Below are positions 3,167 to 49,707 of a stretch of DNA of 64,000 nucleotides, piece by piece. The notes beneath the pieces were generated by a model, which saw only the letters and a program-made list of their open reading frames with translations, did not search any database and was not told the origin of the DNA. Source of the stretch: Polyodon spathula (Eukaryota > Chordata > Actinopteri > Acipenseriformes > Polyodontidae). The DNA lies in assembly GCF_017654505.1 (NCBI RefSeq), contig NC_054534.1:25673189-25737188 (forward strand), in the 5' to 3' direction. Both the position numbers and the translations under genes were made by a program. Within the stretch, counting starts at the first letter, position 1. Every line of letters starts with the position of its first letter.

Positions 3167-3890
3167 CAGGTAGTGGACAAGAAAATGGAAATACCAATGT
3201 AAAGTCACTTAATAGGGTGTTGGGCCACCATTTGCAGCCAGTACGGCCTCTTTGCACCATGGCATAGAGTCTACTAGCCTCTGGAATTCTGCAGGAGGGA
3301 TGCAGCACCATTCTTCCATGAGAAAGTCAATCAACTCACGCCTGGTTGATTGAGTTGGAAAACGCTGTCTCAGGCGTCGTTCCAGAATATCCCATAAATG
3401 CTCGATTGGGTTCAGATCTGGTGACCCTGAATGCCGTGACATATGGTTAACATCAGTGTCATGCTCATCAAACCACTGGGCGACTACACATGCTCTGTGG
3501 ATGGGGGCATTGTCATCCTGGAAGACACCCCTCCCACCCCCACCCCCAGCAGAAAACAAATGCTGCAACAGGGGCTGAAGATGATCGCTTAGTACCATTA
3601 AGTAGCGATTAGCATTGACCTTGCCTTCTAAGGGAATGAGTGCACTCAAACCATGCCAGGAAAATGTCCCCCATAACATTATGGAACCACCAGAACCCTT
3701 CACTGTTGGAACCAAGCACTCAGGGCTGTAGAGTTCTTTAGGTTGGCGCCACACACACACTCGTCCATTTGTCGAGAACAAACATGCATTGCCAGGTGTG
3801 ATGAGCAGTTTGTGAACTGCAACCCGAATATGGTATCCCACTCTGTGGAGTTCTTGGGGGGCAAAGGTGCATTTTGTGGAGACTTCAGTC
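3167..3890 (-). mobile_element. Tc1/mariner relic, 5'-truncated
   Basis: The element runs on the minus strand. One terminal repeat, starting CAGGTAGTGGAC at 3167 next to a TA, is present. No matching inverted end is seen upstream of the transposase. Homology fades near 3890, so the 5' terminal repeat and the DNA-binding domain are gone. The remaining frame at 3209-3841 holds the C-terminal two thirds of the transposase. Confidence 0.85.
3209..3841 (-). pseudogene. Tc1-like transposase catalytic fragment
   Basis: This is a 210-codon open frame with the Tc1 catalytic core. FQDDNAP supplies the second Asp (about residue 110) and SPDLNPIEHLWD supplies the Glu (residue 147). The spacing is 36 residues, unlike the classical 34. 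The LWG motif and the C-terminal tail are present. The first catalytic Asp is missing. TPGN runs directly into NGRVCVW, so the segment normally carrying FSDES is deleted. The N-terminal paired-like helix-turn-helix is also missing. A full Tc1 transposase is about 340 residues, so this copy cannot be active. Family assignment is firm; subfamily by Asp-Glu spacing is inference. Confidence 0.9.
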
Positions 3891-5057: not shown

Positions 5058-5419
5058 GTTCTGACAAAACTGTCCAAAGGACAAACCTTACACTCAGTTT
5101 ATTTTAAGTGTCCTATATTTTAAGGCGACCTTGAAGACCTACGTAACAGTACCCTCAATCTGACCACAAAAAAAAAAAAAAAAAAGAAAAACAACTAAAC
5201 ATAATAGATGACATCAACTCATGCAATTTCAATTCCTGGATGGCAGTTGAGTGCTAATCCCATTTCCATCCCGGATTTCTCAAACTAAAACAAGGGGCAG
5301 GCTGGCAAATGCACAACAACACCGGATTGAGGAAATTGACGAGGGCAGCCCCATGCAAAGCAAACTTGTTAAAAACAGAAAAGCATGCAACCTGATGTTC
5401 ATTTCGAGGCAACCTGAGC

Positions 5420-5428
5420 ATATATCGC
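5420..5428 (+). promoter_or_regulatory. TATA-like box, candidate ESM1 promoter
   Basis: ATATATCGC lies about 100 bases upstream of the ESM1 ATG. A start about 30 bases downstream would give a 5' UTR of roughly 70 bases. This is positional inference only. Confidence 0.35.
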
Positions 5429-5522
5429 GTATTCATGTCAGGTCCGTACTGTGACTGGAGCTTCATTTACCAGAGCAATTTTGAATCGGAGACACGGGAG
5501 AACGACTAGTAGTTTTGCGGAC

Positions 5523-5832
5523 ATGCAGCTGTCGCGGTTCACGGTGTTTTTGGTGCTGCTGCTGATTTGGGAGGTGGATGCCTGGAGCGTGAATGTCAAG
5601 TACGTAGTGGATTGCCCCCAGCGCTGCGATGTTAAAGTGTGCACTGGAACCCATCGCTGCAAGCGAACCGTGATGGATGATTGCGGCTGCTGCCAGGTTT
5701 GTGCTGCGGCCAGGGGAGAACTGTGTTACCGCACTGTCTCAGGAATGGACGGGGTGAAGTGCGGACCAGGGCTACGGTGCCACTTCTACAACGAAGAGGA
5801 CGACTTCGGAGATGAGTATGGCATTTGCAAAG
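5523..5832 (+). CDS. esm1: ESM1 coding exon 1
   Basis: Encodes residues 1-103 plus the first base of codon 104: the signal peptide and the IGFBP-like domain with 12 cysteines. It ends at ICK and is followed by the donor GTAGGC. Confidence 0.95.
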
Positions 5833-8800
5833 GTAGGCTACCCTCTGTGGCACACCTCCTGTGCACTAACTAAAGCATGTTAGTGTTTACTGTATTTAGG
5901 CTACAGACTGTATTATTTTGTGCGTTGCAACTCGGCAACAGTACGAGTGATAATAAAATAAATATAATAAGAAGTACCATATTTCCTTTCGGTAACCTGC
6001 TTATATTTTTGCCAAATTGCTAATTTGCCAACATACGAATAAGTACATCTGATGCTCTGGTGTACCGTATGCTGTATGGGAATATGTTGCATACTGAGAT
6101 ACCACAGAAAGATAGGTCCCGGTGCTGCAGGTATGCACTTATATTCACTCAGTCAAATTGCCTTTCCCATTTAGATTAAAATGGATGCGTTTCGGGTTTG
6201 TTTGATAACACCTGGAGGAACACAGACCGGCTCACCAATTTTTTAATTTTTTTTTTAAAATGAAATTAATGAATATTAAAAGCATATCAAATAACTGTCA
6301 TATTTGTTTGTACTGCCCACACAACAAGGCGATTCATAATGAAAAGTCTGTCGACAATATACTGTACTTAAACTGGTGTAGCTAAATGTCAGTCAAGGAA
6401 TTAATGTTAAGCCAGGAATGTGAGCAATATTAAGAAAATACTTCTTACAAGAAGTAATGGTTCACAAATATTTTAAGCACTGTCTTAATTTGTTAATTCT
6501 AAACACTACACGTTGAAGTATTCACGTTTTGATGTAATGAAGAATCACTGGGCATTCTGCCGGTTTGATTGAGATTATGGAATTTGCTCCAAGTTTCTGG
6601 CCAATATAGGCCTGTTAGTATAAGTATAGAAATATTAATAATATATTTTTTTTGTGCAAACTCCTTCTACCTCAGTTTATAAATATCTATATACAAATAT
6701 ATTGAAATGGTGTCTGCTTAAGTGTCATCTATATCATCAGTCAGCGGTGCTATTATTAATCTCTTTAAAACAAAATAACACACACACACACACACACATA
6801 AGAAAAATTAACAGACTATGTCTATATGCATGGGTTGCTAATTAACTAAACAGTTTTGAAATGTTCTGTATAAAAAAAAAAAAAAAAAAAATTTAGCAGC
6901 ATTGTTTGCCTGAGCGATTTACACATATTTACTTTTTGTTTTTGCTAAATTGTCATCTCTATTGACAATATGTGTGCTGTAGTGTAATCTGCAGGATAGC
7001 AGATATACCTATATATAACAGTACTGTACCTAGAAGGACATGTTTCACTCAGTGCCACACTTTGTTTCTGTTGCTCTTAGACATCCAGGTTCACAGCTCT
7101 AGGAACAGAACATTTCTGTTCAAGGTAAATGGTTTACATCTGTTGTTTAAACAGCACCAACAAAGCAGTGTATGAGCTATATATTTATCACCAGCTTGTC
7201 CATATCAATATAAAACATTCGCGTAAAAAGCATGTGCAATTACTTGTATGCACTCCATCTATTCAACGGTATTTTTTATTTGGACAGGTGTCCTCTATTT
7301 TATACCCATTGTTAAGCTCCATTGTTCTAACCATCCTTAAAATATTCTTTGGTGGAAAAAAAGGGGCTAAAACCATGTAGTCCCAAGTTCTCAGACTGGT
7401 TAGCTAATTAAACAAAGCATTAGTGTTGAGTGAAATCATTGCTATTGGCAGACTTTGAATTGTTTCCTGCACATTGCTGGTTGTTTTGACATGTTTCTTT
7501 TAAAGTTACTGTTGGCAGTTTAGGGCAAAGCTGATATATTTTTTAAAACTATCATAATAAGTTTAAACAACCTGTTAAAAGTCTGCGCTAAGAAATATGA
7601 TCTGTATTAAAAACACGCTTAATCTCTAATAGGATAACACTTCCTGCAAACCATTCATTTAGAAATGCTTTGTATAAACACACTGAATAGGCTTCCAACA
7701 GTGCTGACAGTTTCCACAACACTGGATTTATATAAAGCTTTTTTTTTACCTTGTTCTAATATTTTATTTTCAAAAGATACTGATTGCTGGGTGAAAGAAA
7801 ATACAGCCTCAAATCATTAGCGGTTTCTAATAAAATATGTAAATCTTATAAGGTGAAAGATTTGGAAGTCTGTATACCTTGTCTACTAAATTGATTGAAT
7901 AACTTAAATAACTTAATTGTGAGTGAGTGAATCTTTCTTCTTTAATTGTAATATTGTCTGTTTTTGTCATTTGCAGACTGCCCATATGGGACACATGGAC
8001 TGGAATGCAGGGATACATGCAACTGTAACACTGGGATCTGTGACAGAGAAACTGGAAAATGTCTGAAGCTCCCGTTTTTTTCAGTGCCGGTCTCCAAGCC
8101 AGCCAGCAGACTCAAATTCAGAGCACAAACAGGTAAGTGCCTGTCCTTCCAAACGTTCACTCAGTAAATTACTTCTTACCTTTAGCTTGGTGAGGATTGG
8201 GAATTTCAGAAGGAGTTTAACTTAACATACAATGATAGTGAACTCCAAGTCATTTCTACTGTGATAAAAGCTAAATTATAAATATGTTTAATAATGTGTA
8301 AGCTGCATTTTTAACTAATTGGTTAGGGTAAAAAAAAAAAAAATTCTAGCAAAGATAAATATTGTGAATGGAACCTTCAAATACAATGTATTATTGTATG
8401 TATGTTAATAAGGACTTTTCCTGAGTTGGGGCACACATTTTCCTGGGTGCAAAGATTTAATAAATGTCTCTTACTGCTTACTTATCAGAAGCATTACAGG
8501 ACATGCTCTAGTTCAGTGGTTCTCAACCCTAGTCCTCGGGGGACCCCTGTGTCTTTCATTCCAATTACTTAATTAAACCCCTCATTGAACTAATACTTAG
8601 CTTAATTAGGCCTTTCCAATTGTTCTGGGCCCCGAAAAAGTTGCAGATTTCAAGTTATAACATTTTATAGTTAAGTTGAAATCTCCAACTGTTTAAGAGC
8701 TGTTAAAAAGACCTAATTAAAGTAATTATTAGTTCAATTAAGGGTTTAGTTAAGTAATTGAGAGCTCAGGTGGAATGAAAACCAGAAGACACAAGGGATG

Positions 8801-28993: not shown

Positions 28994-29610
28994 TGTTGCA
29001 GGAAATGACATTGCAGTGACGTCAGGCCAGAAGGAGGAACAAGACACAGACAGGCAGGTACTGCAGTTCAAAGGCGCCGCTCGCCGTTTATTAAACAACA
29101 AAAATAAAATATTTAAACAAAAATAAACACTTGTTCACAGAGCACAAATAAAATATTTAAACAAAATCACAAACACAAACAATAACAAATATAGGTCAGG
29201 CTGGGCGATCTTCACTGTTCCTATACTGTTTTAAATGACTATCGCTCTCCGCTCTCCTATACTATCTCTCTGTACACCCACCCTGAGCAGGGAAAACTGC
29301 AGGGTTTAAATACGGTGGCCGAGGGGTTTAACTAGTTTGTAATTATTCTATTACCCCTCGGTCACAATCTGCACAGGTTTATTAATTGTGTGACTGCCGG
29401 TTAGTTTAACAACGCACTGAGCCGACAGCCACACATTACCACAAGGTTTTTAAACAACAGATAGAAAAACAACAAAATACACTTTCAAAACAAAACACAG
29501 CGACATTTATATATTAATAATAAATAAACAAACACAAAACACAGTACAGGGGCAGAGGGGGAAACCCTGTTCTAAAATAAATACTGAACAGGGCTGCTCT
29601 CCCTGTTACA
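28994..29610 (-). mobile_element. Solo LTR, minus orientation, GTGGT target duplication
   Basis: On the minus strand it starts TGTAACAGGGAGAGC and ends TCATTTCCTGCAACA. It aligns along its length with the LTRs of the element at 47037-49702: the TTTAGAACAGGG block, the TATA-region (TATTTAAACCCTGCAG), the AATAAACGGCG block and the CCTTCTGG...TGCCATTTCCTGCCA end. Identical 5-mers GTGGT flank it (28989-28993 and 29611-29615). It is a solo LTR left by LTR-LTR recombination. Confidence 0.85.
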
Positions 29611-44333: not shown

Positions 44334-44592
44334 GGTATTCATACCATGGATCCAGAAAATGGTAAATGTTGGTGTTCATACCAACGTTCCAGAACATGGT
44401 AAACTGTGGTAATTATGCCACGGTACTTGAACACGGTAAAAGGTGGTATTTATACCACGGTACATAAACATGGTAAAAGGCGGTATTTATACTACAGTAC
44501 ATAAACATGGTAAAAGGCAGTATTAATACCACGGTACATAAACATGGTAAAGGGCAGTATTTATACCATGTTAAATGGTGAACAGGGTAAAC
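44334..44592. repeat. 37-bp minisatellite
   Basis: Units start at 44334, 44371, 44408, 44445, 44482, 44519 and 44556, exactly 37 bases apart. The consensus reads roughly GGTATTTATACCACGGTAC then ATAAACATGGTAAAAGGC. The unit is full of GGTA/TACC mirror pairs, so each repeat can fold on itself. The tract degenerates after 44592. Confidence 0.95.
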
Positions 44593-45321: not shown

Positions 45322-46464
45322 CAGTGGCTTGCGAAAGTATTGACCCCCCCTTAGCATTTTTCCTATTTTGTTGCCTTACAACCTGGAATTAAAATTGATT
45401 TTTTGGGGGTTTGTATCATTTGATTTACACAACATGCCTACCACTTTGAAGATGCAAAATATTTGTTATTGTGAAACAAACAAGAAATAAGACAAAAAAA
45501 TAGAAAACTTGAGCGTGCATAAGTATTCACCCCCCCAAAGTCAATACTTTGTAGAGCCACCTTTTGCAGCAATTACAGCTGCAAGTCTCTTGGGGTATGT
45601 ATCAATAAGCTTGGCATATATGCTTGGGGAGTCTCCCACATGCCTTTTGGCGAACACCAAACGTGTCTGCTTATTTTTTTCGTTAAGCAATGGCTTTTTT
45701 TCTGGCCACTCTTCCATAAAGCCCAGCTCTGTGGAGTGTACGGCTTAAAGTGGTCCTATGGACAGATACTCCAATCTGCGCTGTGGAGCTTTGCAGCTCC
45801 TTCAAGGTTATCTTTGGTCTCTTTGTTGCCTCTCTGATTAATGCCTTCCTTGCCTGGTCCGTGAGTTTTGGTGGGCAGCCCTCTCTTGTCAGGTTTGTTG
45901 TGGTGCCATATTCTTTCCATTTTTTAATAATGGCTTTAATGGTGCTCCGTGGGATGTTCAAAGTTTCGGATATTTTTTTATAACCCAACCCTGATCTGTA
46001 CTTCTCCACAACTTTGTCCCTGACCTGTTTGGAGAGCTCCTTGGTATTCATGGTGATGCTTGCTTGGTGGTGCCCCTTGCTTAGTGGTGTTGCAGACTCT
46101 GGGGCCTTTCAGAACAGGTGTATATATACTGAGATCATGTGACAGATCATGTGACACTTAGATTGCAAACAGGTGGACTTTATTTAACAAATTATGTGAC
46201 TTCTGAAGGTAATTGGTTGCACCAGATCTTATTTAGAGGCTTAATAGCAAAGGGGGTGAATACATATGCACGCACCACTTTTCCGTTATTTAATTTTTTA
46301 AATTTTTTGAAACAAGTTATTTTTTTCATTTCACTTCACCAATTTGAACTATTCTGTGTATGTCCATTACATGAAATCCAAATAAAAATACCTTTTAATT
46401 CCAGGTTGTAAGGCAACAAAACAGGAAAAATGCCAAGGGGGGTCAATACTTTCGCAAGCCACTG
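45322..46464 (-). mobile_element. Internally deleted Tc1/mariner element with IR/DR ends
   Basis: Complete 1,143-base element with matching inverted ends, CAGTGGCTTGCGAAAGTATT at 45322 and its reverse complement ending at 46464, and TA on both sides. The terminal repeats match over about 70 bases with few differences. Inner repeats (GTGCATAAGTATTCACCCC near 45515 and GGGGGTGAATACATATGCAC near 46253) give the IR/DR arrangement of fish Tc1 elements. The catalytic half of the transposase has been deleted. Confidence 0.92.
45683..46051 (-). pseudogene. Tc1 transposase, DNA-binding half only
   Basis: A 122-codon frame beginning MNTKELSKQVRDKVVEKYRS. It has two helix-turn-helix units of the paired-like domain: GYKKISETLNIPRSTIKAII at about 23-42 and KRPKITLKELQSS at about 77-89, with GRVARKK near the end as the basic segment. 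The frame stops at TAA (45683-45685), and none of the three catalytic acidic residues is present. The DNA-binding half is free of stops, so it could still bind the ends as an inhibitor, which is inference. Confidence 0.85.
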
Positions 46465-47031: not shown

Positions 47032-47036
47032 GGCAC
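47032..47036. repeat. Target site duplication, left copy
   Basis: GGCAC, repeated directly after the right LTR at 49703-49707. Confidence 0.9.
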
Positions 47037-47717
47037 TGTAGCATGGCGGTAGGAAAGCCCTGCTGTTTAATCATATTGTTTGTTTATTTTTAGAACGGGG
47101 TCTCCTCCTCCGCCCCTGTGTTATTTTGTATTTTTTTATTTTTTTATATTTTTGTTTATAGATGACGGCGAACCGCCGTGTGTTTTGTTTGTTTATTATT
47201 TTGTATGACAGCGTAGCTGTGCTTTTAGTTTTGTTATTATTTTGCAGCGTGGATGGGAAGCCCCATCCACATTATGAAATTCGTGCAGAAGGTGGCCATC
47301 TCCCAAATTAGTTAAGTGTCTAATTTGTTGCTAATCGGGAGATGGTCACCTGTATAAATACCTGCAGCTCTCTGCACTCGGGGTGGGTGTTCACAGGAGG
47401 AACGAGTGTGAGTGAGTGAGTGAGTGAGTGAGTGAGTGAGTGAGTGAGTGAGAGGGAGAGAGGGAGGAGAAACTAAATTTAAAAGAATATAAGCATCCAT
47501 GAAGGCTACTGCCCAGCCGGACCTTAATTCATTATTTGTGTTCGAGATTTGTTTTATTTCAAACCTTTAATTTTGCTCTGTGAGCAAGTGCTTATTTTTG
47601 TTTAAATATATTGTTTATTTTTCTTTATTAAACGGCGTACGCGCCACTGCACTGTACCTTTTGTTTTTGTTCTTCCTCCTTCTGGTGTGGGTCACCGTAA
47701 CGCCATTTTTTGCCATA
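47037..47717 (+). repeat. 5' LTR
   Basis: About 681 bases, starting TGTAGCATGGCGG. TATAAATA is at 47353-47360. A (GTGA)n expansion at about 47408-47450 is absent from the 3' LTR. The poly(A) signal is changed to TATTAAA, and the LTR ends GCCATA where the 3' LTR has GCCACA. Confidence 0.9.
47408..47452. repeat. (GTGA)n microsatellite in 5' LTR
   Basis: About eleven GTGA units just after the LTR transcription start region. The 3' LTR has only degenerate GAGAGCGAGTGAGG here, so the expansion arose after insertion. Confidence 0.9.
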
Positions 47718-47719
47718 CG

Positions 47720-47737
47720 TGGTGTTAGCAGTGAGAT
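47720..47737 (+). promoter_or_regulatory. Primer binding site, tRNA-Leu type
   Basis: TGGTGTTAGCAGTGAGAT begins two bases after the 5' LTR. It pairs, with three mismatches, with the 3' end of a vertebrate tRNA-Leu (TGGTGTCAGAAGTGGGAT in complement). Confidence 0.8.
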
Positions 47738-47854
47738 CACCAGCGCCTCCTGGACTCAGGCCAGAAGAGGTACTGCAGTTTCGTTTTTTTTTTTTTTTTT
47801 TTTTTAATTAATCATTATAATTATTTTTTTTGGAGTGAGGAATAGGAAGGAAGG

Positions 47855-48334
47855 ATGGGAGGAAAGAGGAGGAGCTGCAAGAAGCAGCAGCAGAGGCAAC
47901 AGCAGCAGCTGCAGCAACCTCAGCAGCAGAAGGTTTGGACCTCGACTGGGCAGCCGAGCAGGAAGAATGGAGGGCTGAAGGGGCCCCTATGTGCGGAGTC
48001 TGTGGTGAGTTTGGGCACGTTCGGGAGGACTTCCCCTATGGTGACCCCCTAATATGAGGAGGCCTGGAACCAGGGCCTGGTTGGGGATGCGGCAGAGTGG
48101 TTCTGGGTGAGATACCAGACTCCGCCAACGCCCAAGAGGGAGGATCCCGAACAGCCACAGCCCAAGCCTGCCCCAGCGGAGGAGTGGTGCCTGCTGGTCC
48201 CACCACAGCAGCTGGAGGTTGTCTGGGAAGCCCTCCTCCACAGCATGGGCGTACAGTATGGTTGCTGCATCTGTGGGGAGTGTGGCCATTTCCCAGCTAA
48301 CTGCCCCCTCCCACCAGAAGAAGCCCCTGCATAG
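47855..48334 (+). pseudogene. gag-like frame with two CCHC knuckles, frame-broken
   Basis: An acidic, Gln/Ala-rich segment (QEAAAEATAAAAATSAAEG) leads into a first zinc knuckle at 47992-48033 (CGVCGEFGHVREDF, last Cys replaced by Phe). A TGA at 48055-48057 ends that frame. The next frame, one base on, continues EEAWNQGLVGDAAEWFWVRY. It then reads EEWCLLVPPQQLEVVWEALL and a second, perfect knuckle at 48263-48304 (CCICGECGHFPANC, C-x2-C-x4-H-x4-C), ending at 48334. Such knuckles bind genomic RNA in retrotransposon nucleocapsid. No capsid-like domain was recognised before them. It is not clear whether the frame change is a mutation or a programmed shift. Confidence 0.65.
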
Positions 48335-48995
48335 GTTGCTGAGGGGAGCACAGGAGAAAAACGCCCGGCCACAGTGGCTGCGAAGATGGCCAAACCCCGC
48401 ACCACAGCTAGGCCTGGTTCTCCTCCCACCGTCGCCTTCCGAGGGTCCGCCGCTGCCCTGCCTTGCACCGCCTGGGGCTGCCTGTCGCTCTACATCGCCT
48501 GGGGCTGCTTCTCTCTCTCTTTTATCCCCTATGGTCGCCGAGGGTCCTGCTTCGCCTGGGGTTTCTTGTCTCTCCGCTGCTTCGCCTGGGGTCGCCAAGG
48601 GTCCCGCTTCGCCTGGGGTTTCTTGTCTCTCCTCTGCTTCACCTGGGGTCGCCAAGGGTCCCGCTTCGCCTGGGGTTGCCTGTCTCTCCTCTGCTTCGCC
48701 TGGGGCCACTGTCGGCACGGCTTTGCTTGGGGCCACTGTCTGGCTTGCGCCGCCTGGAGCAGGTACTAGTCCTGCAGGACCGCAGGAATCACCGGGGCCG
48801 GCGCCTCAGAAAAGGGGGAGGCCGGCTACAAAGAAGCGGGGAGGTCAGGAGACCAGCACCCCCAGCCGTACTTTCGTGGCAGGAGGAACAGTGGCTGAAG
48901 CCCCGGAAGAGGGAGCTACCAGCCAGGAAGACATGGGGGGAGGAAGACCTCCCACCATGGCCACCCCCATGGATTACTCCAGACCCCTCTTCTAG
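48219..48995 (+). CDS. Ala/Ser/Pro/Gly-rich open frame in LTR element
   Basis: A 258-codon frame overlapping the end of the gag-like part in another phase. It spans the 57-bp repeats, then a basic segment (KRGRPATKKRGG, like an AT-hook) and ends 50 bases before the polypurine tract. Other frames on both strands are also open over the GC-rich repeat, so openness alone is weak evidence. The basic segment outside the repeat and the end position next to the tract make this frame the most plausible one. Confidence 0.3.
   Translation: MSGKPSSTAWAYSMVAASVGSVAISQLTAPSHQKKPLHRLLRGAQEKNARPQWLRRWPNPAPQLGLVLLPPSPSEGPPLPCLAPPGAACRSTSPGAASLSLLSPMVAEGPASPGVSCLSAASPGVAKGPASPGVSCLSSASPGVAKGPASPGVACLSSASPGATVGTALLGATVWLAPPGAGTSPAGPQESPGPAPQKRGRPATKKRGGQETSTPSRTFVAGGTVAEAPEEGATSQEDMGGGRPPTMATPMDYSRPLF
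48535..48705. repeat. Three 57-bp tandem repeats in the LTR element
   Basis: Units start at 48535, 48592 and 48649, each TCGCCAAGGGTCCCGCTTCG-like. 57 is a multiple of three, so all six frames stay open. In the 48219-48995 frame each unit codes SPGVAKGPASPGVSCLSSA. Confidence 0.95.
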
Positions 48996-49047
48996 GACAT
49001 TGAGACTGAGGGGGGAGGTGGCCGTTGGGGCCATGTGTGCTTTGCAC

Positions 49048-49058
49048 AAGGAGGGGGA
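49048..49058 (+). promoter_or_regulatory. Polypurine tract
   Basis: AAGGAGGGGGA immediately before the 3' LTR (TGTAGCA at 49061). This is the plus-strand priming site. Confidence 0.85.
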
Positions 49059-49060
49059 TA

Positions 49061-49702
49061 TGTAGCAGGGCAGTAGGAAAGCCCTGCTGTTTAATCATAT
49101 TGTTTGTTTATTTTTAGAACAGGTTCTCTCCCTCCGCCCCTGTGTTATTTTATATTTGTTTATTGTTTTATATTTTTGTTTATAGATGACGGCAAACCAC
49201 TGTGTGTTTTGTTTGTTTATTTTGTATGACAGCATAGCTATGCTTTTAGTTTTGTTATTGTTTTGCAGCGTGGGTGGGATGCCCCATCCACATTATGAAA
49301 CTTGTGCAGAAGATGGCCATCTCCCAAATTAGTTAAGTGTCTAATTTGTTGCTAATCGGGAGATGGTCACCTGTATAAATACCTGCAGCTCTCTGCACTC
49401 GGGGTGGGTGTTCAGAGGAGAAATGAGAGAGCGAGTGAGGAGTGAGAGAGGAGAAACTAAATTTAAAAGAATATAAGGATCCGTGAAGGCTACTGCCCAG
49501 CCGGACCTTAATTCATTATTTGTGTTCGAGATTTGTTTTATTTCAAACCTTTTATTTTGCTCTGTGAGCAAGTGTTTATTTTTGTTTAAATATTTTGTTT
49601 ATTTTTTCTTTAATAAACGGCGCACGCGCCACTGCACTGTACCTTTTGTTTTTGTTGTGCTTCCTTCTGGTCTGAGTCACCGCAATGCCATTTCCTGCCA
49701 CA
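49061..49702 (+). repeat. 3' LTR
   Basis: About 642 bases, TGTAGCAGGGCAG to TTCCTGCCACA. TATAAATA is at 49374-49381 and AATAAA at about 49611-49616, just before CGGCGCACGCG. By eye it is highly similar to the 5' LTR apart from the GTGA expansion and scattered substitutions. Confidence 0.92.
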
Positions 49703-49707
49703 GGCAC
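49703..49707. repeat. Target site duplication, right copy
   Basis: GGCAC, identical to 47032-47036. Confidence 0.9.

Follow-up and report, generated by a model that had tools for sequence, protein, structure and literature searches.

The element at positions 47037-49702 of the window, the 64-kb stretch of paddlefish (Polyodon spathula) DNA analysed here, is with a probability of roughly 0.78 an old member of a non-autonomous LTR retrotransposon family that is present in many copies, encodes a zinc-knuckle protein and relies on borrowed enzymes. In the mechanism that we propose, the LTR would drive synthesis of an RNA, a tRNA would prime at the site that follows the 5' LTR, another element would supply reverse transcriptase, RNase H and integrase, and integration would yield a 5-bp duplication. 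The family RNA would also encode a protein that combines two CCHC knuckles with a proline-rich tail and is likely to bind nucleic acid. Among the families sampled, the probable source of the enzymes would be one of the Gypsy type that has matching ends and open frames of ~1450 aa.

Anatomy of the window copy and its family

The element consists of paired LTRs with TG...CA ends, a primer binding site, a polypurine tract and an interior without detected pol, and is enclosed by a GGCAC target site duplication (Table 1). These parts and their coordinates had been given in an initial annotation of the DNA and were all found correct by sequence inspection and blastn. The same holds for its description of a pol-less interior of about 1.34 kb: a Pfam search of five interior ORFs (E up to 1) returned no pol or gag domain, and a set of 119 pol-bearing proteins, compared with the window and 24 further loci, had no match inside the element. 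The 5' LTR of the window copy terminates in TA, not CA, while sibling copies end in CACA. Its primer site, which we take to be of the tRNA-Leu type, reads TGGTGTTAGCAGTGAGATC, and sibling sites read TGGTGTC....GTGAGATC or ....GTGGGATC. No tRNA gene was detected in the 64-kb window by ARAGORN, and Rfam gave no tRNA match to the element up to E 5, the matches at E 3.1 and 4.8 being taken as chance. The two LTRs are 88% identical by blastn with gaps counted and 93.3% identical over 641 aligned columns, corresponding to a K2P divergence of 0.071 (0.058 without CpG sites); the LTR pair of a relative, L019, stands at K2P 0.069. Both copies look like old insertions; no clock was applied.

Table 1. 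Positions of the element's parts and of a related solo LTR in the window
Feature	Position	Strand	Basis
Target site duplication GGCAC (left)	47032-47036		sequence
5' LTR, 681 bp, TGTAGCATGG...TTGCCATA, with GTGA repeat at 47408-47452	47037-47717	+	sequence; siblings end in CACA
Primer binding site, presumed tRNA-Leu type, after CG spacer	47720-47738	+	sequence and siblings
Interior, 1343 bp	47718-49060		between LTRs
ORF piece in frame of family start Met (47855), frameshift-broken	47846-48052	+	alignment to family
First CCHC knuckle CGVCGEFGHVREDF, fourth ligand (last Cys) lost, C..C....H....F, another frame	47992-48033	+	motif and alignment
Second CCHC knuckle CCICGECGHFPANC, complete, in frame of 48053-48334	48263-48304	+	motif and alignment
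57-bp tandem repeats of proline-rich part, 3.7 copies	48495-48705	+	repeat search
Polypurine tract AAGGAGGGGGATA	49048-49060	+	sequence; same junction in L009 and L082
3' LTR, 642 bp, TGTAGCAGGG...CTGCCACA	49061-49702	+	sequence comparison
Target site duplication GGCAC (right)	49703-49707		sequence
Related solo LTR, ~72% to element LTR over matching parts, flanked by ACCAC	28994-29610	-	sequence comparison

Elsewhere in the window, the only match of the 119-protein set (27%, at 3263-3703) involves the Tc1-like start of one query. By eye, Tc1/mariner-like transposase remains lie at 3209-3889 (-) and 45683-46108 (-), and an open frame at 5418-5873 (+) resembles an exon of ESM1 (endocan). A 37-bp unit is tandemly repeated 6.4 times at 44334-44568.

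Searching the paddlefish genome with the LTR and scoring the best 40 of 4314 loose candidates gave identities of 92-100%, and for the interior the best 40 of 1152 loose candidates had best pieces at 81-100% identity; both totals are loose first-look numbers and not copy counts. The 40 LTR rows represent 38 loci, 37 of them outside the window, of which 20 were read over ~10 kb each (L026 minus 4447 bases), 16 at their edges only (~500 bases each) and L051 over 3.7 kb. Family interior or the purine-tract junction is present in seven of the 37 (L009, L012, L015, L019, L022, L051 and L082). Single LTRs have an exact 5-bp duplication at 16 loci, a duplication with one mismatch at six and none at one (L013); the LTR end is not visible in five, and L017 and L018, truncated or complex, were left out of this test. 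Because the test used several alternative LTR-end motifs, one of which was added post hoc for L020, the chance rate of a duplication is somewhat above 0.001 per locus.

A combined search with the interior and the LTR edges showed the 5' junction in 24 of the best 40 clusters, the 3' junction in 30 and both in 15; in the other 25, one or both junctions are absent from the scored pieces. This tally was made from 66 of 98 rows, and none of the other 32 spans the 5' junction. The interiors of the 15 two-junction clusters measure 1343-1997 bp, and four of these match the query only partly around its first knuckle. L052 has a longer interior of ~2.4 kb, and L012 has retained the proline-rich part alone. 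That the window interior is the shortest of the 15 could suggest that this copy arose by its own internal deletion from an autonomous element carrying this LTR. We regard this reading as very improbable, since all 15 two-junction clusters are short and no pol was found inside L009, L012, L015, L019, L022, L049, L050, L051 or L052, several of which are truncated; a single internal deletion was rejected on the range of these interior lengths. The call of a non-autonomous family made by the initial annotation is thereby supported: there are many copies, no pol was detected inside them, and in the clusters scored there is no sign that most are longer and encode pol. The sequence search for pol covered 24 loci and the window; for the remaining copies, the length of the interior served as the criterion. 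Among the literature matches listed, none describes an element of this kind from a sturgeon or paddlefish, although one may exist in print.

The two-knuckle reading frame

In L019 the frame is open over 449 codons (436 aa counted from the first Met) and encodes a protein that begins with a short basic stretch rich in glutamine, continues with two C-x2-C-x4-H-x4-C knuckles separated by 90 residues and ends in a proline-rich tail; tandem repeats are also present in the interior. Relative to this ORF, the window copy has three out-of-phase length changes that place the start, the first knuckle and the second knuckle in three frames. The window copy, with its frameshifted ORF and a first knuckle short of one ligand, cannot make the family protein. 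The knuckle motifs named in the initial annotation are there, but in this copy the reading frame that carries them is interrupted.

To follow the ORF across copies we used a 162-codon block from 25 sequences, namely L019 as the frame reference, the window copy, 20 of the best interior places, L009, L015 and L022. The block is alignable wholly or partly in all 25, and three (L019, L041 and the partial L015) contain neither stop nor frameshift. All four ligands are kept in 17 of 25 sequences for each knuckle (L015 does not reach the second), and single ligand sites are retained in 88-96% compared with a background of 82%. Length changes common to several copies are of 3 or 18 nt; the block includes a glutamine-rich stretch in which changes by whole triplets are to be expected.

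Of 240 changes found in a single copy, 62 are synonymous, against an expected 26.7%, a pattern that is as for decay after insertion. Among changes common to at least three copies, 21 of 58 are synonymous (36%, p 0.10), and in the second knuckle block, where the sequences fall into two sub-types (19 and 6), these are separated by 9 synonymous and 18 non-synonymous differences, with 27.8% synonymous expected. Codon tests on these 25 copies from one genome detected no purifying selection, so that we treat the family protein as predicted and not as established to work; purifying selection could be confined to a few source elements.

Pfam matched zinc knuckles below threshold (E 0.1 and 0.18) and, for the family ORF of L019, returned no gag family or capsid, its other weak matches being taken for chance. 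The AlphaFold model of the family protein (mean pLDDT 61.4, four short helices) was too uncertain for a fold search; a capsid-like domain was not seen in it, and at this confidence the protein may harbour a hidden fold. A sequence search of the PDB gave a single weak match, to TUT4 (E 0.81).

Two protein database searches, with ~8000 best candidates scored in each, yielded 71 and 73 homologues, 111 of them distinct. One carries no source name; the source of all others is a sturgeon (Acipenser sinensis, A. ruthenus or Huso huso). At least one exact CCHC motif occurs in 77 of the 111, compared with an average of 0.06 after shuffling. A second sturgeon subfamily is ~28-34% identical to P0004 and by eye has the same layout, with a knuckle, PY-x-DP and then A-x3-G-x4-A-x-E-W. 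Many of these sturgeon homologues come from unverified gene models, and fusions to other domains occur among them; in P0016 and P0049, parts of the element ORF are joined to a SCAN or a reverse transcriptase stretch, probably through annotation joining neighbouring elements. For the two acipenseriform families, a passage in PMC8042750 places the split near 81.5 Ma.

With its two knuckles and proline-rich tail, the predicted protein most likely binds nucleic acid. The earlier proposal that the element may bring its own RNA-binding protein has partial support. The two-knuckle ORF belongs to the family and sturgeon homologues are predicted, but the window copy is unable to make the protein, and the copies compared show no sign of purifying selection. 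A competing explanation takes the knuckle ORF for the decayed end of an ancestral gag without a role, the element being an ordinary passenger whose RNA alone is mobilised by the donor. The neutral substitution pattern, the broken window frame and the knuckle matches below the Pfam cut-off agree with it; the CCHC layout kept in predicted sturgeon proteins at ~28-34% identity between subfamilies, the frame of L019 open over 449 codons and the common length changes of 3 or 18 nt, though partly in the glutamine-rich tract, do not. We give this explanation a little less than an even chance.

Pol remains and a candidate enzyme donor

Outside the element, the 119 proteins matched a reverse transcriptase in L024 and an integrase beside L050; all other listed matches were to the start of query P0172, which by eye resembles a Tc1 transposase. 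The reverse transcriptase in L024 was rejected because the single LTR downstream of it is flanked by an exact duplication of its own. As an autonomous version, the integrase and reverse transcriptase remains next to L050 (in L050 and L053) were rejected, since the family interior ends ~0.6 kb short of these remains, their sequence is degenerate and a family 3' LTR was not found in the following 8 kb. The two older remnants, in L024 and L053, were rejected too, with different sequence downstream and a best match of 18 bases at E 0.006. Two degenerate Gypsy-type pol remnants lie near L050 (L053:188-901 and L053:7959-6370), and in one Gypsy-type remnant there the integrase, located in L050, precedes the reverse transcriptase.

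Two sets of pol families were then compared with the element at their ends. For those nearest to P0112, the best 105 of 15723 loose candidates were scored; none of seven sampled 3' ends matched the element (E up to 0.1), and these families were rejected. Among them is a Gypsy-type family with long open frames near 1569 aa at dozens of places of equal score (835.9 bits), which suggests recent amplification.

The family nearest to P0149 (best 65 of 18183 loose candidates scored; frames mostly 1442 or 1466 aa, hence ~1450-aa family) gave a different picture. With a slash marking each boundary, all four sampled 3' ends read GGATA/TGTAACAGGG, and the consensus shared with the element is GGATA/TGTARCAGGG; the full junctions are GAGGGGAAGGATA/TGTAACAGGGAGAG in this family and AAGGAGGGGGATA/TGTAGCAGGGCAG in the window. 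Both sampled 5' ends read CCACA/CG/TGGTGTCAGAAGTGGGATT, and the 5' end common to candidate and element is CCACA/CG/TGGTGTC...GTGGGAT, the longer junctions being CTTCCACA/CG/TGGTGTCAGAAGTGGGATT for the ~1450-aa family, CTGCCACA/TG/TGGTGTCCAGCGTGGGATC for L019 and CTGCCACA/CG/TGGTGTCGCAGGTGGGATC for L022. What the two have in common is thus the LTR tips, the spacer, the primer site and the purine-tract junction; of the LTRs only the tips agree, as blastn of the LTR bodies found no match beyond one of 18 bases at E 0.1. By its sequence, the solo LTR at 28994-29610 of the window (Table 1) is a link between the two: it shares its first 14 bases with the LTR of the ~1450-aa family, and its U5 resembles the LTR of the element at 72-73%. 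RNase H lies near the 3' LTR in the ~1450-aa family, so that integrase would be expected upstream of reverse transcriptase, an order inferred from this position. Integrase upstream of reverse transcriptase is the arrangement of Gmr1 elements.

The shared parts are targets of priming and integration, which fits use of the enzymes in trans. Matching ends are no proof of such use, since tRNA-Leu primer sites are common and few pol families were sampled. Among the families sampled, the ~1450-aa Gypsy-type family is most likely the donor. The suggestion that the element borrows pol thus remains plausible, with both sets of ends found in one sampled family and an LTR body that differs; compared with the partner that had been envisaged, sharing LTR, primer site and purine tract, this candidate agrees at the ends and not in the LTR bodies. 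It is also quite conceivable, if somewhat short of evens, that the true donor is an unseen family whose whole LTR is alike, the matching-end Gypsy family being merely a cousin. The unmatched LTR bodies leave room for such a family, as does the scoring of the best 105 among 15723 loose pol candidates in one search and the best 65 among 18183 in the other; against it, pol in the same element was found in none of the 37 LTR-chosen loci (16 read at edges only and one over 3.7 kb).

A bolder version of our favoured reading holds that the family is an acipenseriform-specific, long-lived pol-less lineage whose non-gag protein, proline-rich and with two knuckles, chaperones or packages the RNA and whose donor is related only in the purine tract, the primer site, the spacer and the tips of the LTRs. 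We hold this as a speculation with the odds clearly against it; if true, the element would be a parasite mimicking solely what the donor's enzymes recognise.

Comparison with known systems

The family is a non-autonomous LTR family from a vertebrate, and its two-knuckle protein is an orphan. Vertebrates have other pol-less LTR elements, with gag remnants, that use the enzymes of a relative; examples are VL30, ETn and MaLR, which are derived from retroviruses. The paddlefish family resembles these in being a vertebrate pol-less LTR element that would depend on borrowed enzymes; unlike them, it has no named relatives outside sturgeons among the matches listed in the two protein searches. To our knowledge, the well-described pol-less elements of vertebrates that keep a protein are retroviral derivatives.

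TRIM elements are miniature and have a non-coding interior, LARD elements have a long non-coding interior of several kb, and BARE-2 has lost gag and kept pol. Like LARD and BARE-2, the paddlefish family is non-autonomous and would depend on a partner. Its interior is short where that of LARD is long and non-coding, and it is the reverse of BARE-2 in having a gag-like part and no pol. The family is likewise a non-autonomous LTR element as TRIM and Helenus are, the latter known from the same fish order, but its interiors of 1343-1997 bp carry a common ORF, and the initial annotation was right to set it apart from TRIM. LARD and BARE-2 are named as non-autonomous LTR elements in PMC10552921. Helenus, which has tRNA-like LTRs, is present in sterlet and paddlefish according to PMC10886601; animal Helenus elements are described there with 4-bp duplications and tRNA-like LTRs, whereas the family has 5-bp duplications, LTRs of 642-681 bp in the window copy and no Rfam tRNA match up to E 5.

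Plants are known to have pol-less elements with a retained protein; here the protein has no recognised capsid and the likely donor matches at the tips only. The family therefore makes testable which short sequences suffice for the enzymes of an LTR element to work in trans, and raises the question of whether a lone zinc-knuckle protein helps an RNA to be taken along. In mode of working, the closest known kind would be the TR-GAG elements of plants, to judge by analogy. These have paired LTRs, a gag ORF and no pol, and their enzymes are thought to be borrowed (Chaparro et al. 2015, as cited in PMC8704663 and PMC10552921); transposition is reported in Arabidopsis, where the ORF encodes a GAG protein of 562 aa (PMC8704663). 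The paddlefish family shares with them the paired LTRs, a single gag-like ORF, the lack of pol and enzymes presumably taken from another element. It differs from these plant elements and their GAG protein in that its ORF encodes two knuckles and a proline-rich tail with no recognised capsid, and we do not class it as TR-GAG because the defining gag domain was sought by Pfam and not found; the likeness to TR-GAG is thus one of working mode, with an orphan two-knuckle protein in the place of GAG.
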